Source: Clavelina lepadiformis (taxonomy: Eukaryota > Chordata > Ascidiacea > Aplousobranchia > Clavelinidae). From it: DNA of 64,000 nucleotides. Both the position numbers and the translations under genes were made by a program. Where the stretch lies: NCBI RefSeq assembly GCF_947623445.1, contig NC_135245.1, forward strand, positions 5,835,501-5,899,500, read 5' to 3'. This document shows, one piece after another, positions 7,263 to 63,783 of this stretch (within the stretch, counting starts at the first letter, position 1; each line of letters opens with the position of its first letter). The notes under the pieces are model-generated. The model made no database searches. It was not told the DNA's origin and saw only the letters and a program-made list of their open reading frames with translations.

Positions 7263-9799
7263 ATTGCAGAGCAAGGCAAGAAATCTCACGTGTATAACTC
7301 ACCGCGCTTACAGTTCAACCATTTGGCCTACATCAGCATTGTAAAGCGATTCCGTATTTATTATGTCACACACATATGTGCATCGTTGTACTGTCTTACG
7401 TTTCCTTTGTAAGGCAAATCACTCACGTTGCGCCAGAACCTTAAGTGTCAAGAAGCTTAGATCTCGGACTACTTTGGTCATTCACTTCACTACATTTTCT
7501 TGCCGTCACGACTGCCATGGCGGGGCTCGAGTTATTAAGAAGCTAAAGCCAAATAGTTTACGACCTAACTGATGCAGCGCGAGTCTTTTATGCTGGTGCA
7601 AAAATATGTGAATTTTGGAGTCTGACTCAGGCCAAGTCATTTAAGACTTTTAACTGGAGTCAAGTTAAGTCATAAAAAAAATTGAATCGGGTAAATTCGA
7701 GTCAGTACAACGCTGCAAATAACCTATTAACAATGTAGGCTTAATCACAGCTTGATTCATTGCTCTAACTATAGGCTAATATTTAGTAGTAGGCAAATAT
7801 GGATATGGGTCAGAAGCTATTAACTCGAAATACTCCCTAGCTTTCTTAATTCTTCCTCATTTCCTCTTTTGGTGAACTAAGTGGCCCCAGTTAAGAATCA
7901 CTGAGTTAGAATAAGTTGAAAACTCCGCCATCAGCGAGCCTCATTGGGTGGACGATAAATGGAATGTGGAGTGACAGGAAACTGAAGAAAGTACCTTTAG
8001 ACTTCGCAATTTCATCACTGACACCAGCTTCCACCCCACCGGACTTTCGTTGCCGGGATGGTCTGGGTACAGTTTAATCGTCTGCGAAGCGGCACCGGGC
8101 GTTTTCGTTCCATTCTACACTGATGGTCAAATGGAAAATTCTGTGACGCGGAAAACAAACTGCAGACCATCTTAAATCGGAATGTTTTGTCTACTATGTT
8201 CCCCACAGAATACATGGACTGCTAGTTTCGGACGACAGGAAAAAACAGTGACTACTCGACTCGTGTCCCGACATCTTGTCTAGGTGAAAGAATAACCTAA
8301 TATATCTGGCCCATACGATAAAGCCATGTCTAGATGTGGAAGTGAGCCGTTTTACGTTTATCATGTATAGCATGTATATCAAAAGCGGGCTGTGCTGGCA
8401 TAGTTCGACCTGTGTTCAATAACCAAAGGCTTTAGGGTTGGAATATTAAATTTTCTTAGGCAATGCACTAACCACATTTGCTTCTGTTCAGTGGTTCGAA
8501 TAAACAGTTCTAAATCCGCGCAATAGGTTATTAGGAAGAGCGTAGCTTTATTTAACATCACCTTACTGTTATAATCATGCTTTCTCACTTATAGTTCAAG
8601 TGATTTAAATTTTGCACATACAGTAGATCTTTTTTTTACTATTACGTGTTACTCCCAGAATCCTGCAAATCTTGAAAACACGTCATTTATCTTGTTTCTT
8701 CAATGTAACGAAATTACTCTAAAAATTCCTCATAAGGAGCCCTGATAATTTAATAGATTTAGCATGTCTTGGTCTGTTACATCATGAAATGCTGACTAAA
8801 CCACATATCTCTAACTCTGGCTTCCTAAATTCAGTACAGTACTAACAGTTCTGGAAAAAAACATTACATAAGTCTTCGGTTTTAAAACACATTTTAAACC
8901 TAAACTGGAAAGTTTTAACAGGCCATCTGCTAGCTTAGCCGTATATAGACTTCTTGAAGAAAGTATTGTCTATATAAAAGTATGATCGATTGGACGATTA
9001 TGTAAATTTACAAATGATTGAACATTGTTTAGTTTCCCAGTAAAATGCATTATTTTAGTCGTGCTTGGTGTCTTACTACTTTAGTTGTCCCTGACGATAG
9101 AAATCCAAAATACTTTCATACCACTAGTAAAATATGAACCACATTTACCTGATAAGGCTCGTTGTTCTGAATCGTCTCGGTCTTCTATCACAAAAATGTG
9201 GTATACCTACAGTAGGGTCTACATGCGAGTTTTAAGCAGAAAAGGATGTAAAACATGACACGCAAACTTAACGTTCGAAGTCCGCAGCTTGATACTTCCT
9301 CTCGAATTGTCATGGTGTTTATGCCTCAAAAGTCTTTTTTCGAATATTTTAGCATGCAGATGGTTGATTAAAGCAAATGCATTTTGTTAGACGATTCACC
9401 GCGGCCGGTCAAACTGCTTCAAGTTATCTGAACAGTCGAATTAACCTAAGACTAAGTCGAATTGACTGACTTTCACAGTACGCCGCATAGAGGGTCCATG
9501 TCCTTCCTCTTAGAACAAAAATTCCAGCATCATGCCAAGCCAACCAATCCGAGGTAATATAACGTTTTGGTTGTTAGAATTAACCTGTGCTGTTAACTTT
9601 GTCTATTCTTTTATCCTTATCCTTATGCACGGGTTTCTTATAAATTAATAATTTGACACAAAGGCCTCCGTTACGCACCATCGATACATTTGTTAAATAT
9701 GCATAACATAGCACTTGATCGGAAAATTAACAAGAACTGCTGGAACAAAAAATTTCATGATTATAGTAAAATAAAGATAAAATCGTACCAACTGTAATT
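7263..9799. other. Intergenic region downstream of SOS
   Basis: No supported gene. The segment 7610-7720 contains several AAGTCA/GAGTCAAG words like those in the hAT element at 18829-19254, so it may be a decayed relative. The word at 7880-7910 (reverse strand CAGTGATTCTTAACTGG) resembles one end of another hAT MITE family (compare 58382-58678), but no partner end was found. The rest, including the SOS 3' flank, shows nothing recognisable. Confidence 0.4.
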
Positions 9800-21440: not shown

Positions 21441-21478
21441 TAGTAGTTAGTAAAGGAACTGAGTGAGCAGATGAATCG

Positions 21479-21593
21479 TCCTAGGTTGAATGGTCCTGGG
21501 TTGAATGGTCCGCGGGTTGAATTGTCCTGAGTTGAATCGTCCGTGGGTTGAATCGTCCGGGGTTTAATCGTCCGTGGATTGAATCGTCCGACC
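21479..21593. repeat. Short-period tandem repeat, about 15-17 bp unit
   Basis: Seven imperfect copies of GGTTGAATCGTCC separated by 2-4 variable bases (TG, GCG, TGA, GTG and similar) run through the segment. The minus-strand ORF over it reads as a TIQPTDDSTQDN-like low-complexity peptide and is not taken as a gene. Confidence 0.7.
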
Positions 21594-34582: not shown

Positions 34583-35876
34583 CGCTCAGTGGCCACTAGC
34601 GGTCATTTTGACCGCTTCTCTGAAAATTCGTTTTTGTTAGGATTTGCGTTGTGTGTTTGCAGCTTAATTAGCTATTGAACAAGTATTCAAGTCACATGAC
34701 TCGATCAATCTATCCACCAAAAAGAGTTTTATTTCAAATGGGCAAATACCTGGACACGAAATTAGAAAATATTTCACATTTGTGTTGTCGCACATTTAAT
34801 AGATTCAAAATGCTCCGTAGCGGTACACTTACCACATAGGGTTTTGTTACATTTCAAACAAAGTTTCTTGGTTTTGTTTTGCGTACAGTTTGCAGCTATT
34901 TCACACTGTTTACGCATCTTGGCTTTGTTGTTTTCACGAGCGTTCAGCAGTGTGTGAGGTATTGCAATCGTAGCGTTTCTGCTTGATCTTTCAACGATGT
35001 GGTCTTCACGTAGTTCAGTAGCAAGCTTAAAGATGTCTTGAAACCTTGTCATCTGTTTGTTTTTTATACAGCACAAAAGCATTGATGCCTGCCAAATCCA
35101 AAATGTTATAGAAAACAGCAACGGGCCACTGATATACTACCTGGCCATTTGATCAGCAACATCAACACCACATATGGTCTTGTTATAAAATTTCACCGTC
35201 TCCGGTTTCTTTTTGAAAGATGCGCCAAATTCAATAGACTGATGCTGAGAATTAAGAACATAAACGCTTTTCTTGGACTTACACAGATACACAGTCAGAG
35301 TTGCCAGATCGCATGCCTTCATGAGCTTACTAGAATAGTGTTGCTGCAAGCATTTTGCAGATGCGGGCAGCTCACGTCTAACCTTGTTCATAGTTCCAAC
35401 AAGACTGGGTTCCTTCTTTTTCAGCTCTTTGGCAAGTAAAAACGACGTGAAAAAGTTATCGGTTGTAACATTTCTGCCTTTACCCATAAATGGTTACATG
35501 AGATTCATGACAACGTTATCACTAAGCCTTTGGGTGGGTGGACGCGACTCGTCTTCACCCAGATATGGAACGGCATTTAGGATATACTTCGATTCCACAT
35601 CAACCGACAGCCAGAACTTTATGCCAAACTTGTCTGGTTTGTTTGGCATATACTGGGTGAATTTACAACGAGCTTTCGTCGGAAACAGCTGGAAAAAAGG
35701 CTTAGAAAAGATAGTTTTTATTGAGCGGTCAAAATGACCACTAACGGCCGTTGGAGGTAAACCACCCACTAAAATATTGCTGAAAGCAGTCTTCCGCTTG
35801 ATACTCAGCATGGGCATTCCTCCTAGCATTTTCAAATTCCAAATCGGTAAAAATGACCGCATCGGCTGTCCTAGTG
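34583..35876 (-). mobile_element. piggyBac-type transposon, deletion derivative
   Basis: The right terminus, read on the minus strand, is CACTAGGACAGCCGATGCGG, directly next to TTAA (35877-35880), the piggyBac target. The left terminus at 34583 shares GCGGTCATTTTGACCG with the right end's GCGGTCATTTTTACCG. It is flanked by TAAA, a likely one-base decay of TTAA. Subterminal copies of GCGGTCAAAATGACC occur at about 34600-34620 and 35725-35740 in inverted orientation. The right subterminal repeat runs directly into the middle of the transposase, so the N-terminal half of the gene has been deleted. The element is about 1.3 kb, half or less of a full piggyBac. Confidence 0.75.
34774..35760 (-). 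pseudogene. piggyBac (DDE_Tnp_1_7) transposase fragment
   Basis: Conserved stretches in order on the minus strand are CKFTQYMPNKPDKFGIKFWL, then YLGEDESRPPTQRLSDNVV, GRNVTTDNFFTSFLLAKEL, and KTICGVDVADQMAR. These cover three catalytic-core aspartate regions. The C-terminal zinc-ribbon-like CLKCNKTLCGKCTATEH lies near 34800. An in-frame TAA at about 35494-35496 interrupts the core between the VVMNLM and PFMGKGRN segments. A further break lies near 35125 before the SITFWIWQA segment. The N-terminal domain is absent. The gene is therefore non-functional. It is typical of PGBD4-like invertebrate elements. Confidence 0.85.
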
Positions 35877-35889
35877 TTAAATATGCATA

Positions 35890-36690
35890 GCCTATATCGG
35901 GGGCGTTCAAATGTTGGATCTCGATTCGGATCTTTTCAACTTTTTGTCTGGATCTTCCAATGTAGTCTTGAAAAAAAAAATTACAGTAATTTTATGTGGA
36001 TACCAATTGTTAGTGTTGAAATTAATTTTTCAACACTCATCTCTAAAGCACCGGAAACTAAGGAACTTTCTAGATCAGCATAATGCTGAATTTTGTGATG
36101 TACTGACGCATAATAACGTGAGATGGCTAAGTAAGGGCAATGCTTTGAAATGGCTGTGGGACCTTCGTAAAGAGTTGGTCATGTTTTTGAATGAAAAGGG
36201 TCAAACTAGTACTCTGCTTGAAGATAACAATCTATGAAACTTGGCTTTTCTTGCTGACTGTTTTACCCATCTAAATACTCTGAACTTGAAGCTCCAGGGC
36301 AAGGGGCGTACTATCATTCAACTGTGGTCAGCAGCGAAATCTTTCAATCAACAGCTGTTGCTATTCGTTTGTGTTTTGGTTATCACTTGTAACCTTGAAA
36401 AGGTAGCCAGTTATAATCAGGCTGGCTAGAAGAGTCCTTACTTGCTTCGCTTCTACGTACCTTTGTGGGTCGTTGTTTTCATCAATGAATTTTGTAAAAA
36501 ACAAGCAAAGAACGAGACTCACAAATGCTCATCTTCATGAACTTTTGAGGATATCAGTAAGTGACAGAAAGTTCCGATTCGATGCTTTTGTGAGATTTAA
36601 ACCAACTCATCATTTTTCTCATAGAAACAATCTTGCAGCTGTAGCACACTTCACTTTTGACTTTTACAAAGTTATTAATATGCTGTAGGC
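35890..36690 (+). pseudogene. Decayed hAT transposase, ZBED5/GTF2IRD2-like
   Basis: Three segments lie in different frames. Segment 1 (about 36090-36237) reads NNVRWLSKGNALKWLWDLRK then ELVMFLNEKG, and segment 2 (36241-36360) reads NLAFLADCFTHLNTLNLKLQ. Segment 3 (about 36475-36620) reads FSSMNFVKNKQRTRLTNAHL then HELLRISVS, corresponding to the C-terminal hAT dimerisation domain. The order matches the ZBED5/SCAND3/GTF2IRD2 transposase family. An in-frame stop between segments 1 and 2 (about 36235) and a frameshift before segment 3 make it a pseudogene. It starts right after the piggyBac TTAA. Its own termini were not found, and the neighbouring MITEs do not obviously belong to it. Confidence 0.75.
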
Positions 36691-49588: not shown

Positions 49589-51261
49589 TCAAGAAGCAAA
49601 TTGTTGTTCAGCTGTAAAAAGAGCTGGAAACCAATACCAGCGCTCGTTAGTAGGTGTTTGATCGTCCACCCATGCCATTCCTTCATGGGTTAAGTGATCT
49701 ATTACATGTTCACATCGTTCACTTTTCCATGACAGTTTTTTCACAACTTCTGAGACAGACATATGCCCTCCATTCTAAAGAAATACAACAAATGGGTGAC
49801 CTAGCATGGTAATTATCATCTCGTGTCGTCGATTCTAAAATAAAAAATCCATTATACCATATTTACTTGAATAATAAGCTCGATTTTTATTTTTTTCAAA
49901 CTTTTTTTGTAATTTTTTGTCATACTTAATATAGTTGACCAGTACCACATGCACTAAAATTACCATGCTGCTTATCCTGCGAATCAGTAGTTACACACAA
50001 ACATACATAAGGTAGTTACGTTCGCTTCTTCAAATCTCCTTCATTGCTAAGATAATGCTTACACACTTCCAAGTCGCACAATGCAGGTTTTTTAGTACAG
50101 TAACCTTTTAGAAACATTTTATGTGTTTCCTAATCAAGGGCGCCTTCTTATTTTTAAAATCGTTTCATGCGCCTTTTAATCAAGTAAAAATGGTATTTGC
50201 AATGTGTAGTTATTCAGTTAACTCAAGTCGCTGTTACAAATAGAATTTAACATTTTCTTTCTTATTAATGATCTTAAAAAATAATGTGGCCTATGTCGTC
50301 AAAACCTGATAAAACTTACCTGCTGGGCAAGATCAAATATTGCTGTATGGTCCATGTTAAGTTCACCTGGTACAGATTGCACAAGCTGATTACTTTTGCT
50401 TCCAATTAAGGCAAAACCTGTTCCCAGCACCTTTAGCTTTTTGATAGCCGTCTGCACGTCTTCTGTTGAAATGTCTTGTCCATATCTACCCCTTGTTTTG
50501 ATTAATCTGTAATAACATATGCCATAAATCTTCATTTTTCATTTCGTTGACATGTATGATCACTATTTTTTTAACGTAAAGGTTCAAATATGCATGGGTC
50601 TGAAAAATGAAAAGTTACATACTTTTGGTGAATTTCCTTCAGTGTCATTATTCCTCCATTTTGCGGCCTTGTTGCAATACAGATTTCAACAGCTTGCACT
50701 CCAAGTTCGTAGTAAAAGTCTCCCACACCCAACATCTCTGACCAAAATCCTTTACCAGAGGCCAACGGGTCTACCTATAAAAATTATTACAAATACTAGC
50801 AAATACAAAAATGATTAATGCCTTAATCAAATACAGTAGATAATACGTAAAAGTTTCTGTTTACAGTTATGAAACAAACAAAATCGAAATTTTCATGCTT
50901 ATTTGTAAAGATATATCCATGCATCTATAGCAGTGGTCACTTCCAAAACACTCACCCCAATAGCTGCACACATTTGTTGAAATTGGTGTCGAAATTGTGG
51001 ATTTTTTTTAATTTCCTAAAAAAGCAAATACATCAAATGTTACTTTACTATAAACTATAACGTTAAGGGCAGCAACAATCTACCTAAAGTAACCTGTTTG
51101 TGCTTGGCGGCAAAATCTTCCAAATTAGTGTGAAAAGTTTCTAATTGGTTGCTTAGTTGTTCAAGTTGCTGAGCTGCAATTTCATTGCCACGTTCTTTGT
51201 AACGAGCTGTTTCCAATTTTTTCTTAGTCACGGCACTTGCCCCAACTCCACGTCGCCTCAT
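49589..51261 (-). CDS. SNF8: SNF8 / VPS22 / EAP30, ESCRT-II subunit
   Basis: A core subunit of ESCRT-II, which sorts ubiquitinated cargo into multivesicular endosomes together with VPS25 and VPS36. Five minus-strand exons: 51261-51094, 51015-50956, 50774-50623, 50506-50320, 49774-49589. They sum to 753 nt and 250 aa (human 258). The N-terminus [16 protein letters not shown] is the conserved start. A coiled-coil helix follows (about 15-56). The winged-helix domains include [20 protein letters not shown], then [15 protein letters not shown] and [12 protein letters not shown]. The last exon carries the second winged helix ([18 protein letters not shown]) and ends [16 protein letters not shown]. 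All junctions are GT-AG and in phase. Confidence 0.95.
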
Positions 51262-52335
51262 TATGTTGTTTGTAAGCGTTAGATTGTTTAGTATGTCCTA
51301 TTTTACACTACATCTCTAAATCCTGTTAAAAAGCTGATCCATTTTTTATAGGCTATTTACTTAAGTTTTTACGTAAAAGTGATTACAGTAAGCAATATCA
51401 TCAACATCTGTTCTACTAAAACACATGCCTTAACATAAAGCTTCCCAAACATAAATTTGAAAAAAACTGTCAACAAGCCTACCGGAGAAAGAGTTATTCA
51501 ATAATATGTCTTTGTGGTTAAGCAATCACCACCAAAAGAATTCTCAAAGAAATGCAAATTTGGTGCTGATTATGACATATGTGGTGGCAATTACGACATC
51601 ACGACCTTCATAACCAATAGGAAAGGGGGCCATAATCCTCACCTTAAAGATCCAATCTTATAGGGCCATATAGCCGTTTTTAAGTCTTCATAATTTTTTG
51701 TTTGCAACTTTTTATATACATAACTATAACCTATGCAACATTAAGTGCTATAAAAGCTACACAAAGCATTGTTTTTAAAGAATGACCATAGCCAAAGACA
51801 GTAGTCAGCCGGTTGTTTGTCATTTTGGACATTAAATATTCAAAAAAGAACTTTGACGGCCTAGATTCAACAAAAATAAGTCACACACTGGAGTTGTTGA
51901 AAAGGAGTTGTGTAATGTTTAATCAAGTTGTAAAAGCAAATTTAGGTAAACCCAGATTTACCGCCAGGTATAGATGTTGAAAGAACATACATTGCAATAA
52001 CTTAACATCATGCGAGTATGATTATAAAATGATCGTATGCCATCAAAAACAGCATCATAGCAATAACATAGGCCTAGTGTACAATATTCTACCGTTTTGA
52101 GCTACGTAATGACATGACACCAATCCCACAGACTGCATAATGCTAAGTCAACAACCCCAACGTGATACAGCTGTGGAAACCCTGGCTTACATACCCAGTA
52201 GGTCAACTAGGACTGTAAAGAACTCAGTAGGGCCAATTACCCACTAATAGGTTTTCATGATTTCGAAACGTCAAAGGAAGAAGCTCTAGCCTAGTGCTGC
52301 TCAGTAATGAAGTAGGTTTACTTACGTACTGGACT
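51262..52335. other. Upstream region of SNF8
   Basis: SNF8 5' flank. No gene or repeat is recognised. Confidence 0.4.
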
Positions 52336-52436
52336 TCAGAGTATGGCGGTTTTCGCCGAGATCTAAGGTGTGCAGAAGCAAAATTCCGTTGTGCAAGAAA
52401 GTAGGTGGTGTGCAATTCGATTCGTGGCTAGGAATT
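52336..52436. repeat. Dispersed repeat, copy 2
   Basis: Contains GGTTTTCGCCGAGATC and GCAGAAGCAAAATTCCG, colinear with 25566-25655. Class is not determined. Confidence 0.55.
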
Positions 52437-53612
52437 CACATTCTAGAATAACCAACCCTGAAGAACTGAATCTCAAAAGATGCAAATATAATTTTTTTTT
52501 TGGATCTTATAGGAACCGGTTTAATTTCATGATTGAAGTTTTTTATTTGCACGTGCAGCAGATGTTGTTGTCGATTGTTATTTCACATTCCAATACTATG
52601 TGATGAGTGCGTTAATCATCATAAATTAAACCTTGTGTCATGTCAATTTGACGATTGTAAACTTGCTTGAAACAAAATAATTTTGTCAACTTATTGCAGG
52701 TTCAAAACAAAAGCTTTTAACTTTTATCTTGTTCTAGAGAAGGATTCGAAATTCTAGATTAGGAATAAACTATTCTAGAATAGTCAGTTATTTTTTAATG
52801 TACATTCCTACTCGATTATTCATGGCTCAAAGCTGCCCAGCATTTGTGCACAATAGGGGAAGTTGCGGCTCTATACAATAGAAATCTGGAAAAAAATCAG
52901 TGTTTCCCACTTTTTTTTGGAGACAGCGGTTTGTCCTGGTTTGCAATGCAGTTTTGGAAAAGAATCTAGGGCGTGCTCTTTCCATACTATGCAGTCTCGC
53001 TTATGTAGTCTACTTAAGTAAAATCCGTCTACTTTGGCTACTTACTTAATAGTTAATAAGTAGTTTTGTTCATAGGCACTCCATAGTAACGTACTTGAGT
53101 ATTGCCTTAAGTTGTATTGCTTTAAGCAAACTCTTGGTAATTTGCGCTTTCAAAACCTCATATTTCAGATCGATAACTACTTTTCAAACGACTTCTTACT
53201 TGAGTAGTTTAAACTTTAAAGTATACTACTTTTAAGAAATTAAATTTTTAAACAGCAATACTTTCACTCGTAATGAAGCAGATTTTTCGGAAATTACAAT
53301 ACTACTACTTAACTAACTTAATGTTTGGCTTTGACCATCACTTTGACCGAAGAAATTTGCAAAGAAATACTTGAATAAACTGAAACATCCTTACAACAAC
53401 ACAATGTTTGTGATGGGTACGTTTGACTGTTCAGTAAAGTTGCTTCAGTATGATGTTTAATATTAAATGTGTTCCAGCTGCGCCGGTACACGTTTTCTGC
53501 TGAGTCAAAGCAAAAGTAATCTTTGGTCAAAATCACAATCAGAATAAGATTAATGATGTGACGTCGCAATGGGAGACAAATTTTCGTTTTGGCACAACTC
53601 TGGCAGTCAGTA
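52437..53612. other. Intergenic, left flank of the foldback element
   Basis: No supported feature. The segment 52990-53300 repeats ACTTACT/TACTTAAGTA words without clear period. Confidence 0.4.
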
Positions 53613-53621
53613 AACAAGGAA

Positions 53622-54510
53622 GGCACTGGGTAAAACCTGGACACGACGCAATCCGCGGATCGTCCATGGACGGTTGAAAATGGACGATTTTTGCGTAAGC
53701 GTCCATGGACGCTTTTACGCAAAAATGACGTTTTCCTTTAATCGTTCATGGACGGTTGTTGAAATAGGCTTAAATCAGTTCTTTTGCATCAAAGCGTCCA
53801 TGGGTGGTTTTTAGGATAAGTTTAAAGCAGTGTTTTCGAGATCGTCCATGGACGGTTGAAAATGGACGATTTTTGCGTAAGCGTCCATGGACGATTTTAG
53901 GAAAAGCTTAAATAGCGGATATGAGGAAAGCGTCCATGGACGGTTGTGGGATTAGGCTTAAAAAGCGTCCATGGACGATTTTAGGATAAGCTTAAATAGC
54001 GAGATGATGAAAATGTCCGTGGACAGTTATGGGATAGGCTTAAATAGTGGATATGATGTAGTGTCCATGGACTGTTTTGGGGTAGGCTTAAATAGTGGAT
54101 ATGATGTACCGGTAGTGTCCATGGACTGTTTTGGGATAGGCTTAAATAGCGAATATGATGAAGTATCCATGGACGGTTATGGGATAGGCTTAAATAGTGG
54201 ATATCATGAAGTATCCATGGACGGTTATGGGATAGGCTTAAATAGTGGATATGATGTCAGCATCCAGCAAGCATGGACAGTTTTGGGGTGATATGCAGAA
54301 ATGATGGGACATGCAAAGACGTCCATGGGTTTTGGGATAGACTTAAATGATGTATTTTGGATTAACGTCCATTTAAGGGTTTTGGGATCTAGGTTTAAAA
54401 TTAAATGATGGATATTGGAAAAACGTCCATGTACGGTTTTGGGTTAGGCTAAAGTGATACAGTTATAGGCATCTATAAGCTGGACACGAAACAATCCATG
54501 GACTGTTGAA
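53622..54510 (+). repeat. Left foldback arm: tandem units with the palindrome CGTCCATGGACG
   Basis: The outer part has units built on CGTCCATGGACG joined by TTGAAAATGGACGATTTTTG. The inner part changes to a roughly 48-bp unit (GTCCATGGACGGTTATGGGA then TAGGCTTAAATAGTGGATAT, then GATGAA). Units degrade towards the centre. Since 48 is divisible by three, the array stays open as a repetitive peptide (SMDGYGIGLNSGYDEV). I read this as a by-product of the repeat and not a gene. Confidence 0.85.
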
Positions 54511-54649
54511 AATTTTGAGTAATTATTTCGTGGCATGACCAACTTTTTTATTTATATGTCTTTACTGTAAATTGTTGTTATTATTCTGATTTAGATATAA
54601 CATTACTGATCTCAATACATATTACTCTGATATTGTAAGTGTATTTTAG

Positions 54650-55069
54650 ATCATTTTTACGTGCTAATGGCAAATGTTTTTGTGGCACTTGGGATAAATG
54701 TATGTTTCAGCATAGCAAACATGAAAGGCAACAAGACAGTTCGAATTGTGGCTCACTTGCTTTAAAGGTATTTTTAGAAAGGATGAATTTAAATTTGTGA
54801 AGATTAAGTATATATATAATCACTATTATCACTAATTCAAACTATTTGACATCACAATGTGTAATCGTGTATATTCCTAAAATCAAATTGGATTGTAAAA
54901 AATAGCTTTTCTATCAATAAGTGGCTTATTGCAGGAAGCTCAAAGAATCCTTAATGAAAGTTCTTCCGAGGAACAGATCGATACGGACAGCGAGTCCTGC
55001 AAAAAGTATCGCATGGACTTTGGCAATTTACTGCTTGATTCCACCGTTGAGAGGCTGTTGGGCTTTTAA
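54650..55069 (+). CDS. C-terminal part of a Ulp1/SENP-like (C48) cysteine protease inside the foldback element
   Basis: Two exons, 54650-54767 and 54935-55069, join in phase 0. Exon 1 ends KHERQQDSSNCGSLALK, and exon 2 reads EAQRILNESSSEE... to YRMDFGNLLLDSTVERLLGF with a TAA stop. The Gln-x4-Asn-Cys-Gly pattern, followed by a helix and a terminal RxxFGxLLLD helix, matches the end of Ulp1-type proteases, with the Gln of the oxyanion hole and the nucleophilic Cys. The expected upstream His and Asp exons are not present in the short space to the left arm, so the gene is truncated or its upstream exons lie elsewhere. Ulp1-type domains occur in several transposon groups, including some Mutator-like and Zisupton-type elements. 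Confidence 0.6.
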
Positions 55070-55388
55070 TTAGAACTGCAGTATTTGTAGCATGTTGTGA
55101 CCTTGTTGTTGTTTAAGGTCGTTGAAGTATACCACATAATTTTCCAGAAGAGCACTAAACCATACTTATGTATAAAGTTAATGTAAAAGAGATTTATAGG
55201 AAAACCACCAACATTTTTAACCTGACTTTAAACAGATTAACTATTTTGTTTGTTGTTGTATTTGTAACTGGCACATGGTTGGTCTTGAATTTGTTAACTA
55301 AATATTTTTAAAAACTGTATATATACTTCTGTTTTCACAACAAAGTATTTTAATGTAAAAATGCAGATAGATTTATTTCATTTTGCAG

Positions 55389-56664
55389 ACTATGATGTAT
55401 TGTTGAGTTTTTGCAATATATGCCACAATCAAGACCCATCTGAAATTGACCAGCAAAAGACAGAATGGGTAAACCTTGTTCATCATATAATATATTAACT
55501 TAGGCATATTTAACCATCATTGCATACAGTTTAGTAGGTATTATAAGTTGCAACTATTTTACCACTGTAGTAAAACTATTTCGAACTGGGCAGCGGCAGA
55601 TATCAGATTTTGGAGAAGTTTATTTTCAGTTTTACTGTGGTCTAGGCCAAATTTTGAACTTTTTACTTTTAGCTTGATACGTCAACAGGACCATGATAAT
55701 CTCTATCGTCGTTTCTTCGCATGACTTAAACCTGGCACTGATTCCTAATCATTCAATACTCTGGTTAACAAGCTAGCCTTTGTACAATTTTTTTTGTGAC
55801 ATATTTTTTATTGGTTTTTGCATCATATTGCCCAAATTTCAAACTTTTTGCCAGTTTAAATAAAAAGACCTAGCGTCGTTAATGCATTGCAACTGAGTAT
55901 CGAACACAAGCCATGCACAAAGTTTGCTCATTTGTTTCAGATGTTACTCTATGTTTCTACATTCAGATAATAAATGTCTACGAGCACACAGGTCCAGCAG
56001 TGCATAGTTTTATTTTTGTATAATTCCTGTTCTACAACCAAAAATTGTGTACATAAAACCGTACATAAAAATTACTTAACTCAAACACAACTAGAAAATT
56101 TAAAATCACTTTTAAAATTCTAGTTGTTTTAATTTTGCACTCGTGGTTCCAAAACACTTATGAAAAAACTAAGTTAATGACTTGTGTTTTTTTTGATAGG
56201 TTGTTTTAACTTTATAGAACACCTATACCATGCTCAAGCATATGTGGGCAGTACTGCGGTACTATAGTACCGAATTACTTTTTTCAAGAAATTACAGTCA
56301 GTCCCGGTACTTTTCGTGTGATTAGTTAAAATTTAACAAGTTTATGTTCAAAAAACACATGTTAATTACTCCTTAATACCAATTGTAGCATCTGTTGATC
56401 TTTTTTAATCTAGAAGTGTCAAGCAAAATTGCGAACAAGTAACCTTTACCGCAGCAAATATTGCATTTGCTGCAGCATCTTTTACACGAAAAGTGCTGTC
56501 TGTTCACCTCTTTGCTTAAGAGATCACTTTACAGGATTTAATTGTCTATATTGTTTTTTCAGATTGAATGCAGTCTTTGTTGTCGATGGGTTCATCAGAA
56601 TTGTGTACCATTAATACAGTATTTGTCGCAGGAATATTTTTGCAGCACCTGCAAAAAAGAATAA
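55389..56664 (+). CDS. PHD-type zinc finger exons inside the foldback element
   Basis: Two exons, 55389-55468 and 56563-56664, are separated by a 1.1-kb GT-AG intron. Exon 1 gives FCNICHNQDPSEIDQQKTEW. Exon 2 gives IECSLCCRWVHQNCVPL and EYFCSTCKKE, then a stop. The ligands fit C-x2-C, C-x2-C, H-x2-C, C-x2-C, the C4HC3 PHD pattern, with the usual Trp before His (RWVHQNC). Exon 1 starts in phase 1, which does not match the phase of the upstream protease exon ending in a stop. It is therefore probably an alternative 3' end of the same gene or a separate gene fragment. Confidence 0.6.
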
Positions 56665-56956
56665 ATGGATTAATACAAATTTTTGTGTTTGACGCGAAAG
56701 TGAATATATTCAATTTTAAGCAATATATGACGAAATGAAATCGAGATTAGGTGTTACGATGCTCACAGTTATAGTAAAATATGTACAATTTAACACATTA
56801 AGCTTGAGTGATGATGAAAACAACTTAGTTAAAGTCTTTATATTCCCAATTAATTATATTCCTCCCCCGCGTTCACATTCAAATACTGAGTGAGTTTTTA
56901 CTGGATTGACGATGATGGTCACTTCTCTCCTGTCAGCTCATCTTATAACAAAAATC

Positions 56957-58119
56957 GTTCATGGATGCTTTTAAAGCCCATCTCAAAACAGTCCATGGAC
57001 ACTTCATCAAATCCACTATTTCAGCCTATGCCATAACTGTCCAAGGATACTTTCATCATATGCACTATTTAAGCTTATCCTAAAATCGTCCATGGCCGTT
57101 TTTTAAGCCTATCCCATAACCATCCATGGATACTTCATCATATCCACTATTTAAGCCTATCCCATAACCGTCCATGGATACTTCATCATATCCACTATTT
57201 AAGCCTATCCCATAACCGTCCATAGATACTTCATCATATTCGCTATTTAAGCTTTTCCTAAAATCGTCCATGGACGCTTTTTAAACCTATCCTAAAACAG
57301 TCCATGGACACTTCATCATATCCACTATTTAAGCCTATCCCATAACCGTCCATGGATACTTCATCATATCCACTATTTAAGCCTATCCCATAACCGTCCA
57401 TGGATACTTCATCATATCCACTATTTAAGCCTATCCCATTACCGTCCATGGATACTTCATCATATCCACTATTTAAGCCTATCCCATAACCGTCCATGGA
57501 TACTTCATCATATCCACTATTTAAGCCTATCCCATAATGGTCCATTGATACTTCATCATATTCGCTATTTAAGCTTTTCCTAAAATCGTCCATGGAGGCT
57601 TTTTAAACCTATCCTAAAACAGTCCATGGACACTTCATCATATCCACTATTTAAGCCTATCCCATAACCGTCCATGGATACTTCATCATATTCGCTATTT
57701 AAGCTTTTCCTAAAATCGTCCATGGACGCTTTTTAAGCCTATCTCAAAACAGTCCATGGACACTACATCATATCCACTATTTAAGCCTATCCCACAACCG
57801 TCAATCGACGATTTCCCCATATCCGCTATTTAAGCTTTTCCTAAAATCGTCCATGGACGCTTACGCAAAAATCGTCCATTTTCAACCGTCCATGGACGAT
57901 CTCGAAAACACTGCTTTAAACTTATCCTAAAAACTACCCATGGACGCTTTGTTAAAAAATAACTCATTTAAGCCTATTTCAACAACCGTCCATGGACGAC
58001 TAAGGGAAAACGTGGGTTTTGCGTGAAAGCGTCCATGGACGCTTACGCAAAAATCGTCCATTTTCAACCGTCCATGGACGATCCGCGGATTGCGTCGTGT
58101 CCAGGTTTTACCCGGTCCC
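56957..58119 (-). repeat. Right foldback arm: tandem units in inverted orientation
   Basis: Reverse-complement counterpart of the left arm. Between about 57000 and 57840 some fifteen units of about 48 bp (GTCCATGGATACTTCATCAT then ATCCACTATTTAAGCC, then TATCCCATAACC) are highly alike, with occasional variant units ending GCTTTTCCTAAAATC. The outer 230 bp carry the CGTCCATGGACG units and the terminus. This arm is about 1.16 kb against about 0.9 kb on the left, so copy number has diverged between arms. Confidence 0.85.
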
Positions 58120-58381
58120 AACAAGGAAGGCCGCCACTATTTCATCAGAAAAATAGTGCGTTCAAGGCCATTTCTCAGTTTTTTGTTAACCTAACTTTTA
58201 CAAAGTGACCGTATGTAAGTCACGCAACCTGTTGTTAAAGATCGGTTAGAGTCGATCGATCTGTTAGGTTAGGAGAATGGGCATGAAACACGTTGATTCT
58301 AGCTAGGCTATTTAAGGTTTTCTTGGAGTTAAATTTAGTTTAGAAGGTGGGTTTAACTTGGATTTAAGCCATAGTTTAAAT

Positions 58382-58678
58382 CAGTGGTTCTCAATTTGTC
58401 ATGGTTCGTGGCCCTCTTACAGTGACCTTCAAAATTCGTTGCCTCCTGCTCATCAATCAAAAATGTAGATTGTTGATTGCAAAACACTTTGTACTTCACT
58501 ATAGGCTAGGCCTAACATGAGCGCGTTTGCTGTATCCTTCGCCCGTTAAGTTTGCACAGCAAGCACAAAAACGTTAGGAACCTGTGTCCCGCTTTGTTAC
58601 GTCTTCCCCTACTATAGCTCATTAGTGAGGCAACTACTTATGCCCCCGGGGCCATTAGCTCCCGGTTGAGAACCCCTG
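58382..58678. repeat. hAT-type MITE, 297 bp
   Basis: The left end is CAGTGGTTCTCAATTTGTC and the right end on the reverse strand is CAGGGGTTCTCAACCGGGAG. The flanking octamers GTTTAAAT (58374-58381) and GTTTAAAG (58679-58686) match at seven of eight positions. CAGNGGTTCTCAA is a terminus widely shared by hAT elements. Confidence 0.8.
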
Positions 58679-58686
58679 GTTTAAAG

Positions 58687-59559
58687 CATGACAACTGCAC
58701 CCTCAAGATTTTTAATAGGCCTACTAATTTTAACTTTAATACCAAAGTTTTCCTTTTTTACCGTCAAAAAAAGAGGCTTTGTGTTTAGGCTAATGTTCAT
58801 TGCAGACTGCAAAATGCACCTAGTACACCATTTTGCATTCGATGCACCCTGATTTTAGCCAACCAGCACCCGCTCACCCCAATTATAGCCATCCTTCACC
58901 GCCGAGATCTTCTCGAAAAGTGCCATGCTTTCCAACTTGGGATCTAACAATGTTATGACATTTAGATTAGGTTAACAAGGAACTTTGAAAAATTGCTTCA
59001 AACACATGATTTTCTCCAGTAAAATAGTGACAGCCTAACTTTTTTGTTATTAATAAAATATATATAGGCTACTTATTACTTACATAAAATTCGTTCAGGT
59101 CCATTTATCTAATTTCAATTACAAAATTAAATCCAAAATAACTCGAATCAAAATTTTAAATGCTCATCCTCTAGGAGTCTAGGCCTAGTTCGCTTGGAAT
59201 TGCACCCATGTGAAATTGTGTCTACCTCACTTTCTCGAAAGCCGATTCCTATACATGGTCAATATCCCACATGAATGTATCGCAAAAGCTATGGAATTCA
59301 CCAAAATCCTGATAATATGCAACGCTTATTGTTGGGAGTATAAATTTATCCTTCGTATGTCAGTCTGGATGTTGTCATCAAGAGAAGAGCTTTTCGGGGA
59401 AGGGGGCAAGCCTCCACGAAATTGCACTTATGTGCAGTTTACATATTCATTTGATTATTGTTTATTTTTCTTAAGAAAGGATTGTCAAATAAGAATATTA
59501 TTTACCATTAAACCAGTTAAAAGAACAACGCACAACAAATTCTGCCTACGTGTGCATTG
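58687..59559. other. Intergenic, nothing recognised
   Basis: Contains an ORF of 116 codons at 59210-59560 with no recognisable domain, and no other signal. Confidence 0.35.
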
Positions 59560-61180
59560 ATTTCGATAACCATATGTATGTCTTGAAAAATTCTTTTTGA
59601 TTGAACATTCACTATATATGTTGAAGAGATCAGGGGAGCATACACAGCCTTGCCATACTCGTTTTTTGATGGATATTAAATTTGTTTCTATTGTTCATGT
59701 CCGTATTTTGCTCCTTGCTAGTAGTAAAGGTTTTATATCAGTCGCAAGTTCTTTTCCTCCAGGTTCATTTTGTTTAGTAATTCCAATAGCTTCAGATGTT
59801 TAACACGGTCAAAAGCCTTTTTGTAGTCTATAAAGCTTAGGTAAAGGTTTACTTGCATTTCAATGGCGCTCTTACAGATAGTTCTAAGCAAGAATATAAC
59901 ATTATTACGTGTTTCTCTGCCTGGCAAAAATTCGTACTTTTCTGTTGAGATTTCGGTGTGGAGTTTCCTCTCTCTTGATCGAAATAAAGCTACTTTTTAA
60001 ACAATTTTAATGACGTGGCTCATGAGACTGATGGTGTGAAAATGTTTACAATCGTTAGTTCCTAGTTTCTTAGGGATAATTATAAATATTGACTGTCACA
60101 GCGCTTCTGAAATCTTGCCGCTGTTGTAGATTAAGTTAGGCAGTTTGTGAAGTAAATCAATACATAAGTCTTTAAGGTCTTCAACTGCGATGTTGTCTGG
60201 CCCCACAGCTCTACTGTTACTAATGCTACACACGGCATTCCTGATTTTACTCAAAGTTATTTCTGGGCCAGATAATGGCTCTCTGAAGGAAAAAGGTTCA
60301 TTATTTGCCATTCTTAATGGAACATCTTGTTGAAGGTGAGCTCTAACTGTTGGCTGCCTAATACCTTATAATTCAATTTTTTCTTGTAAGATGTAACTTT
60401 GTATTTCTTCAACTTCTCTCTAATTTTAGCCACTACTGGAACATGGTTGCTATACCAGTCTGCTCCATGGTATGTCTTTGCATCAAGGACTGCATTTCTG
60501 AATCTTTTGTTAATGATGATGTAATCTATCTTGTTTTTATATTTTCCTCCTGGTGATTTCCATATATGTAAGCATCTGGCATGGTTGTTGAACCAAGTGT
60601 TGGTGATGGTCATGTTGTTTACTTCACACCAGTCATGCAGTAATTCTTCTCATTTCCTTCACTTCTGCTCATCCCTTGCCAACGCTTGCTCTGAAGTCGC
60701 CCATGAAAATGAGTAGCTCTCTTGAGCTGTATGTGGTTGTGGCTTCACATAATTAGTGATGAAAGTTTGTCATATCTGTTTCTGTGGAAATTTCTGTTGG
60801 AGCATCTTAGACTTGTATTACATTGTAGTGTACTTTTTGTCCTCCGAGTTTCAGCAGTAACATTCGGTCATATATTGCCCAATGTTTTTGGTAACATTTC
60901 GCTGATTTTTTTTCCATCACTGTTCCTATACCATGTTCATGTTTTTTGCTTCCTGATCAGATGATTTTGAAACTTTTCTTGTAAATTTGTCCTTGGTTTG
61001 TGCAGCGCATTTCAGCTATTCCCATTTATTCTGTCTTTTCTTGAGTAATGTTATCTAGCTTCCTTTTCTGGTAGAGACTGCATACATTTCATGTTGGGTT
61101 GGACTTTGATACCGACGAGTAGCTGATTGACAACCGAGTAGGACATGTTGGGCGTCATCACAAGTCCGTTGAGTTTGTGG
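59560..61180 (-). pseudogene. Decayed non-LTR retrotransposon (LINE), endonuclease and reverse transcriptase
   Basis: On the minus strand, in order: an endonuclease N-terminus at about 61080-60960 (KRKLDNITQEKTE, MGIAEMRCTNQGQ, HGIGTVM). The GDF motif FMGDFRASVGKG follows near 60690. The endonuclease C-terminus lies at 60613-60400 (WKSPGGKYKNKIDYIIINKR, GADWYSNHVPVVAKI). The RT start lies at about 60300-60150 (ISNSRAVGPDNIAVEDLK). The RT core lies at 59927-59733 (FIDYKKAFDRVKH). A late RT block lies at about 59720-59600 (VWQGCVCSPDLFNIYSE). Several frameshifts and stops separate the blocks, and the YxDD box is not seen. The order APE endonuclease then RT is that of Jockey/CR1/I-type or RTE-type LINEs. 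The clade is not decided. Confidence 0.8.
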
Positions 61181-61656
61181 TTGTAACATTTTCAGGTGAT
61201 CTCCAGTTTAATAGTGATATGCAAACAAAAACGTTTGACTTCTTAGTGCAGAATTTGACGACTTATGGCAAACTAGACCAGGGGGCACCAATACTGTGCC
61301 CATGGGCGCAGGAACCACACCAGTTTCCCACGGTTCATTTTTAAAAATAGCAATAAATTTTTTTTTAAATCTTCTACTTCTAAAAAAGCCGCATGTTACA
61401 TCACTCTTTTTGATCACAAGTGAAGTTTTTTCCTTTTATGTAACATGTGTAATTTTATACTATTATACATATTTAGCAGGTTTGTTTAAACGTCCATTTG
61501 CTTGCTAAGTGTTCTTACGAACACTTAACGGCCCTCAGGAAGTGTACTTAAGTATTCCTTTTTTATTGTGCTGATTTTGGTTTTGCGGCTGACACTTTGA
61601 AATATTGAAGACTACTGTCTTATTATATATACTTTTTATTTTTTTAGATCAGTGCA
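61181..61656. promoter_or_regulatory. 5' flank of the ZnT5 gene with an acceptor-like site
   Basis: A T-rich tract, TTTTTATTTTTTTAG, ends at 61647, nine bases before the ZnT5 ATG at 61657, and looks like a 3' splice site. It would fit either an upstream non-coding exon or spliced-leader trans-splicing. No other element is recognised. Confidence 0.4.
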
Positions 61657-63783
61657 ATGGCAGACAATATTCAAAGTGACAAGCTGGGAAGAATTCAGTC
61701 AAATATTGCCAGCGGTTTTGGAAAATATGGCTTTATTTGGATTGTTATCAAGATAATACGTTGCATCGGTCTATTTCAAACCAGTGATTTACTGAAAACC
61801 ATTCCTGTAGTTCCATTTTTATTTTTTGCTAAGCTTACTTCAGCTGGAACATTTTTGCTCATACAGAAGCCTTTTTCAAGTGGCCAGAAGTTGAACAAAA
61901 AACAATGGAAATACATTTTTCGACACGCTTTGCTGGGACTAGTTTCGAATCTTTTGTGGTTATCGGCACTTAAACTTTGTGGCCCTTTGCGAACTATTTT
62001 GGTATACGAGCATGGTGAACCTATTTTGATAGCTATGTTTGTTGGAATGTTCTCAAATGGACGCAGGGGAAACCATGCAAAGGCCAGGGGATCACTGATG
62101 TTTTTCCTTGGTATAGTTTGCTTGCTGTTTTTTGATAATGACAGTACAATGTTAACCAGGAAACCTAATCACCCCGAAGGCACACACACAAGCAGTATAT
62201 CACACTCATTTTATGCTTTGATATCTTCTCTAGGGGTTGCCGATCACAAAGGAGGTGTTCTGCTTCTGGTTTTCACGTTGCTGCTTAAAGTTGCATGCAG
62301 TGGATACACTAAGAGAGTCAGCGCTCATATTGGATGTGTCAAACGCTTACATGCTCTATCAACTTTGTTGTCTGCTGTGTTGCTTTGCCCATTTTCGATT
62401 CTAATCTATCTTACTGGATCTGAATTAAACATAGTCAAGAGCATTTTACCTTTATTCCTTGCTGTCGTGTTAGTTTTTGTCATCGATTATTATGGACACT
62501 TAAAGGTTTCCACAAAGCTGGAAGCTGTACGTATGGCACGCATTGGATATTTCACAATGGCGATTTTTGCTCTGTTTTTTGGACTTCAGTGGAGTCAAAC
62601 AGAAGGCTTATCATCAGTTCATCATGTGGAAGAACATGCCTTATCCGGTGGAGTGGTTGTTAGCACTGTATTTTTTATTTTGGCATCTGATATGTTGTCG
62701 TGGCCATCTTCTAAAAGTCAAAAAGGAAGCTTTATTGGTTATTCTGCTGAAGGCTTACCCTTATATCGCTTTGCAGATGATGTATTGCAACGAGCTTCTA
62801 AATCCACAGTTGTTGAATTATTCCATGGTCTTATGCAGCGTGTTATGAGAGAAAGGGATTCAAGACATATTTTCTACTTCCTTTGCATCAATCTATGTTT
62901 TGCCTTTGTTGAACTCACCTATGGCATATGGAGTAATTCACTTGGGCTTATATCAGACAGCTTTCATATGCTATTTGATTGTACTGCTTTAATACTGGGT
63001 TTGATTGCTGCAGTGATGGCAAAATGGAAACCGTCAAGAATGTTTTCTTATGGTTATGGAAGAGTAGAAGTCCTATCTGGATTTGTGAATGGCTTATTTT
63101 TGCTGGTTGTTGCCATCTTCTTGTTCCATGAAGCGTTTCAAAGGTTACTGGATCCACCAAAAATTGATACGGACAAATTGATGGCTGTATCTGTGGCTGG
63201 GTTTCTTGTGAATTTGGTTGGTGTTTTTGTGTTTAGTCACCAACATGGTCATGGTTCAGCTTGTAATCACGACCATCACCATCATGATAACACCAACTTG
63301 AAGGGTGTTTATCTCCATATTTTAGCAGATTTATTAGGAAGTGTCGGAGTCATTGTTTCATCATTTGTAATTGGACGCTGGCAGATTTTAGTTGCCGACC
63401 CTATTTGTACTGTTCTTGTCGCTACACTTATCTTGTGCACAGTTTGGCCATTACTCCGGGACTCTTCGCGGATGTTAGCCATGTGTGCATCCCCAGAATT
63501 AGAACTAGACATCAACAAAGCATTGTCAAAAGTTTCGGCAGTTGATGGTGTCATATCCTTTCGTTTCTGTCAAGTATGGCAGCACACTGATGATGAAATA
63601 ATTGCTGCAGTCAGTGTCTATGTTGAATCTCATGTGATCGAACAACGCATAATCTCCCAAGTTACTGCTATACTTAAAGAACACCGGATAACTTCCGTTA
63701 CTGTTCAAGTAGAAAAAGACAACTTTTATCAGCACATGTCTATGGAACGCCAACGCCGCAAAAATAGCAAAGTGTTAAATTGA
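61657..63783 (+). CDS. SLC30A5: ZnT5 (SLC30A5)-like zinc transporter, single coding exon
   Basis: A cation diffusion facilitator that, with ZnT6 in vertebrates, loads zinc into early secretory compartments. A 708-aa uninterrupted ORF (human 765). The start MADNIQSDKLGRIQS is the first ATG after an in-frame TAG in the flanking acceptor. Residues 1 to about 400 form the long, multi-spanning N-terminal extension that is unique to ZnT5 (QKPFSSGQKLNKKQW, LCGPLRTILVYEHGEP, LGVADHKGGVLLLVF, ALSGGVVVSTVFFILASDML). The CDF core follows. Metal-site residues His437 and Asp441 lie in SDSFHMLFD, and His554 and Asp558 in LHILADLLGS. A His-rich loop (HQHGHGSACNHDHHHHD, about 529-545) lies between them. The C-terminal cytoplasmic domain ends VTVQVEKDNFYQHMS. 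It is the only intron-free gene among seven in the window. A retrocopy or lineage-specific intron loss is possible, but the reading frame is intact and conserved. Confidence 0.95.
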   Translation: MADNIQSDKLGRIQSNIASGFGKYGFIWIVIKIIRCIGLFQTSDLLKTIPVVPFLFFAKLTSAGTFLLIQKPFSSGQKLNKKQWKYIFRHALLGLVSNLLWLSALKLCGPLRTILVYEHGEPILIAMFVGMFSNGRRGNHAKARGSLMFFLGIVCLLFFDNDSTMLTRKPNHPEGTHTSSISHSFYALISSLGVADHKGGVLLLVFTLLLKVACSGYTKRVSAHIGCVKRLHALSTLLSAVLLCPFSILIYLTGSELNIVKSILPLFLAVVLVFVIDYYGHLKVSTKLEAVRMARIGYFTMAIFALFFGLQWSQTEGLSSVHHVEEHALSGGVVVSTVFFILASDMLSWPSSKSQKGSFIGYSAEGLPLYRFADDVLQRASKSTVVELFHGLMQRVMRERDSRHIFYFLCINLCFAFVELTYGIWSNSLGLISDSFHMLFDCTALILGLIAAVMAKWKPSRMFSYGYGRVEVLSGFVNGLFLLVVAIFLFHEAFQRLLDPPKIDTDKLMAVSVAGFLVNLVGVFVFSHQHGHGSACNHDHHHHDNTNLKGVYLHILADLLGSVGVIVSSFVIGRWQILVADPICTVLVATLILCTVWPLLRDSSRMLAMCASPELELDINKALSKVSAVDGVISFRFCQVWQHTDDEIIAAVSVYVESHVIEQRIISQVTAILKEHRITSVTVQVEKDNFYQHMSMERQRRKNSKVLN

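Follow-up and report, generated by a model that had tools for sequence, protein, structure and literature searches.

In hydra and lancelet, transposons of the Mutator superfamily (Mutator-like elements, MULEs) encode Ulp1, and the Figure 1e legend of the same report announces an alignment of Ulp1 and PHD domains from Ginger1 and Mutator transposases (PMC2836005). According to a clade listing, Rehavkus elements have a 9-bp duplication, inverted repeats of 26-400 bp, a PHD finger and a minisatellite and are reported from arthropods and annelids only, while tunicates are entered under Phantom, a clade listed with none, FLYWCH or SWIM (PMC6446971). In this study, we analyzed a stretch of 64,000 nucleotides from the ascidian Clavelina lepadiformis (assembly GCF_947623445.1, contig NC_135245.1, positions 5,835,501 to 5,899,500; in the following termed the window), which contains a foldback transposon of 4,498 bp. 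With a probability of about nine in ten, judged from sequence comparison, this unit is a non-autonomous internal-deletion derivative of a MULE of the foldback kind. The likely parent type can still be read at another locus, L059, where the exons left in the window copy lie downstream of a MULE-type transposase frame.

Foldback architecture is shared with Galileo and Drosophila FB; the transposase of Galileo, however, places that element in the P-element superfamily. Comparison of descriptions brings Tm1 of Meloidogyne (Mutator/Foldback) near to the window family in architecture, with foldback-like arms, 9-bp duplications, asymmetric terminal motifs and one putative autonomous copy among many derivatives that resemble miniature inverted-repeat transposable elements or are deleted. 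Tm1 differs by its FLYWCH finger and its short length (0.17-2.5 kb), and its paper mentions neither protease nor PHD (PMC3169594). The hydra and lancelet elements likewise join a MULE transposase to an Ulp1-type tail (PMC2836005). In the window family, the arms are long tandem arrays and putative CG-1-like domains are located upstream. Ginger1 also carries Ulp1, or in one family Ulp1 and PHD, behind the transposase, but its catalytic domain is of the Gypsy integrase type and not of the MULE type (PMC2836005). A literature search found nothing combining foldback, tunicate and Mutator, and another for a MULE with Ulp1 and PHD finger in a Hydra transposon found nothing related.

Ends, arms and copies of the element

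A preliminary description of the window had held that a 4.5-kb unit with long inverted arms of tandem units moved as one piece. Its bounds (53622-58119) proved exact to the base: the direct repeat AACAAGGAA stands on both sides (53613-53621 and 58120-58128) with 0 mismatches, and the outer inverted repeats (53622-53952 and 57789-58119) are 94% complementary over 331 nt without gaps. Both arms are tandem arrays, mostly of 48- and 34-bp units, the left one reaching inward to about 54502 and the right one beginning at about 56951. Underlying these units is the palindrome CGTCCATGGACG, of which the element contains 13 exact copies and the remaining 59.5 kb of the window none; with up to two mismatches the counts are 34 versus 1. 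In single-stranded DNA folding, the first 400 nt of the element were far stronger than 100 shuffled sequences (z -9.15). Such long inverted arms of tandem sub-repeats constitute a foldback-type structure. No transposase frame was seen among the open frames examined in the window copy, in agreement with the earlier remark that no DDE core is evident, and 0 of 4227 RNA families reached the gathering threshold at 50000-62000. An empty site was sought with the right flank, part of which is a dispersed repeat, and no full second copy of this flank was present among the 40 scored of 711 first-look candidates. The dispersed repeat occupies 58365-58690, a short way beyond the element, and these 40 have about 70-87% identity. 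At 21472-21590 of the window, a tandem array of TGAATCGTCCGTGGGT units resembles the arm motif.

For the detection of further copies, the genome (209,060,895 bases in 95 contigs) was searched with a 30-base end pattern allowing up to 3 mismatches, which also matches inner copies of the end sequence. This yielded 50 forward and 50 reverse matches versus 0 and 0 with a reversed-pattern control. Of 22 loci examined around such ends, 14 had both outer ends readable, giving 15 two-ended copies together with the window element; the other eight (L022, L024-L028, L059 and L060) were set aside, a single end being readable or the locus being cut. Exact 9-bp duplications, expected earlier as 8-10 bp, flank 10 of the 15 copies (window, L012-L016 and L018-L021). 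Both outcomes that the preliminary description had named as contrary to it, a lack of further genomic copies of the ends and flanks devoid of such duplications, thus failed to appear. All ten have one GGCACTGGG end (GGCAC) and one GGGAC[C/T]GGG end. The GGCAC end is located 5' of the gene remnant in six of them, the core is flipped relative to the ends in three (L018, L019 and L021), and L020 has cores in both orientations; recombination from arm to arm would account for the flipped and double cores.

Extra inner ends, with one 9-bp duplication bounding each locus, were found in L020 (C4:9471000-9480999; 9.0 kb), whose two cores have opposite orientation, and in L015 (C4:2669000-2678500; 7.9 kb). 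C1:3149776-3156672 and C1:3432670-3439566 form a mirrored pair with matching internal pattern in opposite orientation, and C1:2956814 and C1:3834260 (L025 and L017) form another, with a nearly identical 30-nt flank beside the end, also in opposite orientation. These pairs look like the inverted duplications or inversion traces that foldback elements can cause. Two larger and older copies match at 81-85% over the first core piece: C5:21971366-22021879, with four same-strand ends within a 49-kb stretch, and C4:4456411-4473398, a unit of 17 kb that carries oppositely oriented cores at its two sides.

A parent-type copy and the internal deletion

In locus L059 (C4:17589900-17599899), a family end is located at 420, and the core sequence is window-like at 90-96%. 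The minus strand of L059 holds two stop-to-stop open frames of 160 aa (8335-7856) and 885 aa (7358-4704). The latter lies between family arms, upstream of the window's Cys-motif and PHD exons, and includes a MULE domain above the Pfam cut-off (PF10551 at 450-544, E 3.8e-8, 34.1 bits), so that the longer copy with a transposase which the preliminary description had proposed to look for is available. Similarity of this frame to IS256 transposases (E 5e-7) is far below that model's own cut-off, and similarity to Transposase_mut is below cut-off. Inspection by eye indicates that D, D and E residues stand in contexts like those of MULEs and that a SWIM-like motif, CxC...CxH, is present. A six-frame genome search found the 885-aa frame intact once, in L059; the 15 other matches were all partial, nine of them with stops, and one is a related domain in L059's own 160-aa frame. 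The 885-aa frame matched none of the solved structures up to E 10, and one scan of viral contigs for transposase relatives returned three stretches fitting a peptide pattern, none of which was confirmed. Other MULEs of the genome were rejected as close kin on account of low identity, since of the 20 matches compared out of 141, 19 had 24% over 89 columns and one had 39% over 33. At its start, ahead of the CG-1-like domain, the 885-aa frame contains a unit of 159 bp (53 residues) repeated three times in tandem (L059 6781-7254).

The preliminary description had left two options, a deletion derivative of an autonomous element or a foldback element with captured host exons. Only arms and exons are displayed by the window copy alone, as would fit the capture of host Ulp1-like and PHD exons in the way Pack-MULEs do in plants. 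This origin is not supported, because in L059 the same exons share one unit with the transposase frame and lie downstream of it. In addition, a genome search with PF02902 (Ulp1) gave eight matches, all outside the family loci, and Ulp1 tails are known for Mutator transposons, the Ulp1 and PHD parts of Mutator transposases being compared in a figure (PMC2836005). Altogether, we consider capture hardly credible and favor the internal-deletion derivative.

The pieces flanking the missing approximately 4.1 kb match L059 on both sides (window 54545-54624 to L059 8321-8400, window 54626 onward to L059 4198 downward) and are therefore collinear with it. The identical join is present in 14 of 17 aligned places, L009 and L010 being one duplicated insertion; the remaining three are the undeleted L059 and L021 and L060 with a different join. 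The join common to these 14 places indicates that the deletion spread from one founder. Genome-wide, a join pattern had 14 matches, 11 of the deleted type and three of the undeleted type (L059 and a mirrored C1 pair), and it missed five copies that bear the join by alignment (L013, L015, L016, L023 and L026). Two mirrored loci, C1:3153626-3154713 and C1:3434629-3435716, contain fragments of the two upstream frames. An undeleted-type join lies about 1.4 kb from each locus, and each is enclosed by another pair of family ends, as expected for intermediates. With gaps excluded, the window element differs from L019 at 15 of 2,269 sites, from L018 at 18 of 2,268 and from L023 at 18 of 2,282; its nearest copies are thus less than 1% different, and the deleted form therefore spread recently.

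A chimeric L059, in which an unrelated MULE sits inside a foldback element while something else mobilizes the family, would agree with an intact frame in one copy only and with the missing end of this locus. We rate this explanation as very unlikely. No inverted-repeat pair of at least 14 nt bounds the transposase region (L059 4000-8560), where the longest of 10 pairs has 22 nt at 77% and lies inside the gene, although an element without inverted repeats would escape such a search. Within L059, the family end core is confined to position 435 and to a degenerate occurrence at 8482, which resembles the window's inner copy, and the mirrored C1 loci hold pieces of both upstream frames within family ends of their own.

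Several observations weigh against an internal deletion in a mobile parent. The 9-bp duplication is absent in 5 of the 15 two-ended copies (L009, L010, L011, L017 and L023); three of these five have both ends of one type, and L009 and L010 have identical flanks and therefore represent one insertion duplicated together with its surroundings. No copy with two ends and an intact transposase was found. The second arm of L059 ends at about 9185, approximately 87 bp short of the outer end, and the full parent is what we infer from it. In L021 and L060, another deletion connects the arm directly to almost the same right breakpoint, a coincidence for which a short common GATATTG stretch, read by eye, is the only explanation offered. 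Finally, no phase-matched link from the 885-aa frame to the Ulp1-like exons was found by eye. Without one outer end, L059 could therefore supply transposase in trans, and as a unit it is probably not mobile.

From the extent of L059, the parent would have been about 8.9 kb long, with long arms of tandem palindromic units and a gene encoding a MULE-type DDE transposase followed downstream by Ulp1-like and PHD exons. A single internal deletion, which starts just inside the left arm and ends in the intron preceding the Cys-motif exon, removed the transposase and the preceding domains and spared the arms and the last four exons. Transposase made elsewhere would bind the arms and cut at the GG[C/G]AC ends, and insertion would occur with a 9-bp stagger, the leftover exons riding along as passengers.

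Retained exons and putative DNA-binding domains

The features of the element are listed in Table 1. Exon lengths of 118, 112, 80 and 102 nt maintain a single frame to the stop codon.

Table 1. Coordinates of the element's features in the window.
Feature	Position	Strand	Basis or remark
Target-site duplication, left copy (AACAAGGAA)	53613..53621	.	
Left foldback arm: GGCACTGGG end, 331-nt terminal inverted repeat, tandem CGTCCATGGACG units, inner degenerate end copy (54474-54502)	53622..54502	+	
Remnant of sequence upstream of the putative parent's frames	54503..54624	+	54545-54624 = L059 8321-8400 at 91%
Internal-deletion join	54624..54626	.	L059 4199-8320 (about 4.1 kb, including the two upstream open frames) absent
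Exon with Ulp1-like Gln/Cys motif (RQQDSSNCG)	54650..54767	+	Splice sites by eye
Next exon, end of Ulp1-like part	54935..55046	+	Following donor TT
PHD finger, first exon (CNIC...)	55389..55468	+	Pfam on joined exons of parent copy
PHD finger, second exon with stop codon	56563..56664	+	Sub-threshold PF00628 match (E 2.7e-4)
Right foldback arm: GGGACCGGG end, longer tandem array	56951..58119	-	
Target-site duplication, right copy (AACAAGGAA)	58120..58128	.	

Of the two domains named in the preliminary description, the PHD finger stood, just below the Pfam cut-off of 24 bits: the window exon frame 56542-56664 reached 21.3 bits with PF00628 and the joined PHD exons of the parent copy 22.3 bits (1-47 of 47, E 1.3e-4). 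With the joined tail, 20 solved structures were matched, nearly all of them PHD-finger proteins (best E 0.014). The Ulp1-like protease was not confirmed as a domain, PF02902 giving no match with window frames at E up to 10 or with the joined tail at E up to 1. QQDSSNCG fits a Ulp1 Gln/Cys loop. From the His-Asp-Gln-Cys set of Ulp1 (Peptidase C48), the Gln/Cys loop and a DP motif were recognized by eye, and a His exon was not found by eye. In L059 the upstream exon with the DP motif joins in phase to the retained exons, again by eye. The label protease is thus a motif-level reading, and the parent may have encoded MULE, Ulp1-like and PHD parts in one fused protein.

The retained exons might still serve the element, e.g. 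as a truncated regulator maintained by selection. Their frames are open in the window and in the copies closest to it, apart from stops in L012, L019, L021 and L024, and 18 of 19 aligned copies lack no base in the four exons, insertions not being counted. In comparisons that all use the window as reference, many with common ancestry and with at most 363 exon sites, the exon substitution rate equalled or exceeded the non-exon rate in 12 of 19 cases and was lower in seven (L009-L012, L021, L023 and L024), with the largest gap in L021 (6.7 vs 9.7%). The splice donor after the exon 54935-55046 is TT in the window, whereas each of the 15 further copies recovered by pattern has GT there. In five copies (L013, L015, L016, the second core of L020, and L026), 2 nt are inserted into the first PHD exon. 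Selection on these exons is not supported by the rates, stops, insertions and lost donor, and a retained function appears very improbable. We conclude that the exons are probably passengers, i.e. remains of the parent, because their divergence is not systematically slower than that of adjacent non-coding DNA and a splice donor is gone from the window copy.

In the region ahead of the MULE core, searches with whole frames ranked CG-1 third for the 885-aa frame (E 0.0027) and first for the 160-aa one (E 0.0077). After trimming, for which the regions were chosen when the match had already been seen, the second CG-1-like domain had PF03859 as its only match (7-114 of 116, E 1.8e-4, 21.6 bits vs a cut-off of 23.5), and the first had it as top match below cut-off (12-50, E 0.0062, 16.7 bits). 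A relationship between these two domains is evident from 32% identity (E 6.6e-9 and 5.5e-10). A genome-wide PF03859 search listed two matches, both on C2 and resembling the host CAMTA gene, and not L059; CG-1 identity via host CAMTA exons found no support (hhalign probability 3%). In open-licence PMC literature, no CG-1 domain in a transposase was found beyond a plant CAMTA review and a Tm1 gene name; this Tm1 gene, Cg-1, bears no relation to the CG-1 domain. The accessible part of PMC10027918 has 0 occurrences of CG-1. It is conceivable, if rather doubtful, that the parent transposase has two CG-1-like (CAMTA-type) domains before the MULE core which bind the CGTCCATGGACG palindromes of the arms.

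Classification, neighboring features and significance

The Mutator/MULE superfamily is characterized by a MULE-type DDE transposase in an autonomous relative, a duplication of 8-11 bp (typically 9 bp) and terminal inverted repeats, which are often long. Here, L059 provides the PF10551 match (E 3.8e-8), 10 of 15 copies the exact 9-bp duplication, and the window element repeats of 331 nt at 94%. Judged from these features, the element is a new family of the foldback kind in this superfamily, the known comparators being judged by description only; the earlier statement that no named family can be given with certainty is thereby resolved to the level of the superfamily. As a finer label compatible with a MULE deletion derivative, the Rehavkus clade is possible but unlikely. 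Its listed 9-bp duplication, PHD finger and minisatellite near the 3' end (PMC6446971) may correspond to features of the window family, which has the 9 bp, arrays in both arms, and PHD exons downstream with a score just below cut-off. Against this label stand the reported hosts, with tunicates under Phantom, and the Pfam MULE profile matching the L059 frame above cut-off. No FLYWCH match was obtained in either L059 frame by Pfam search.

Elsewhere in the window, 61648-63783 is an uninterrupted frame of 711 codons with a Cation_efflux domain (E 7.3e-48). It resembles SLC30A5/ZnT5 and is possibly a retrocopy or a native single-exon gene. On the minus strand, 35494-35991 holds a frame with DDE_Tnp_1_7 (E 8e-12), a fragment of a piggyBac-type transposase.

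The family would illustrate clearly how a single deletion in one parent gene can give rise to many descendants; the likely trans-acting source can still be read in the genome and itself lacks one end. The apparently odd set of protease-like and PHD exons would be accounted for as remnants of the parent. Should the CG-1-like domains prove real, a connection between CAMTA-type DNA binding and transposases would emerge, and the repeated palindrome would acquire a role open to testing, the foldback arms being arrays of transposase-binding sites. CG-1 would then join FLYWCH and WRKY-GCM1 as a domain common to MULEs and transcription factors. Hitch-hiking elements of this kind are ordinary; what would be unexpected is the possible DNA-binding part of the parent enzyme.

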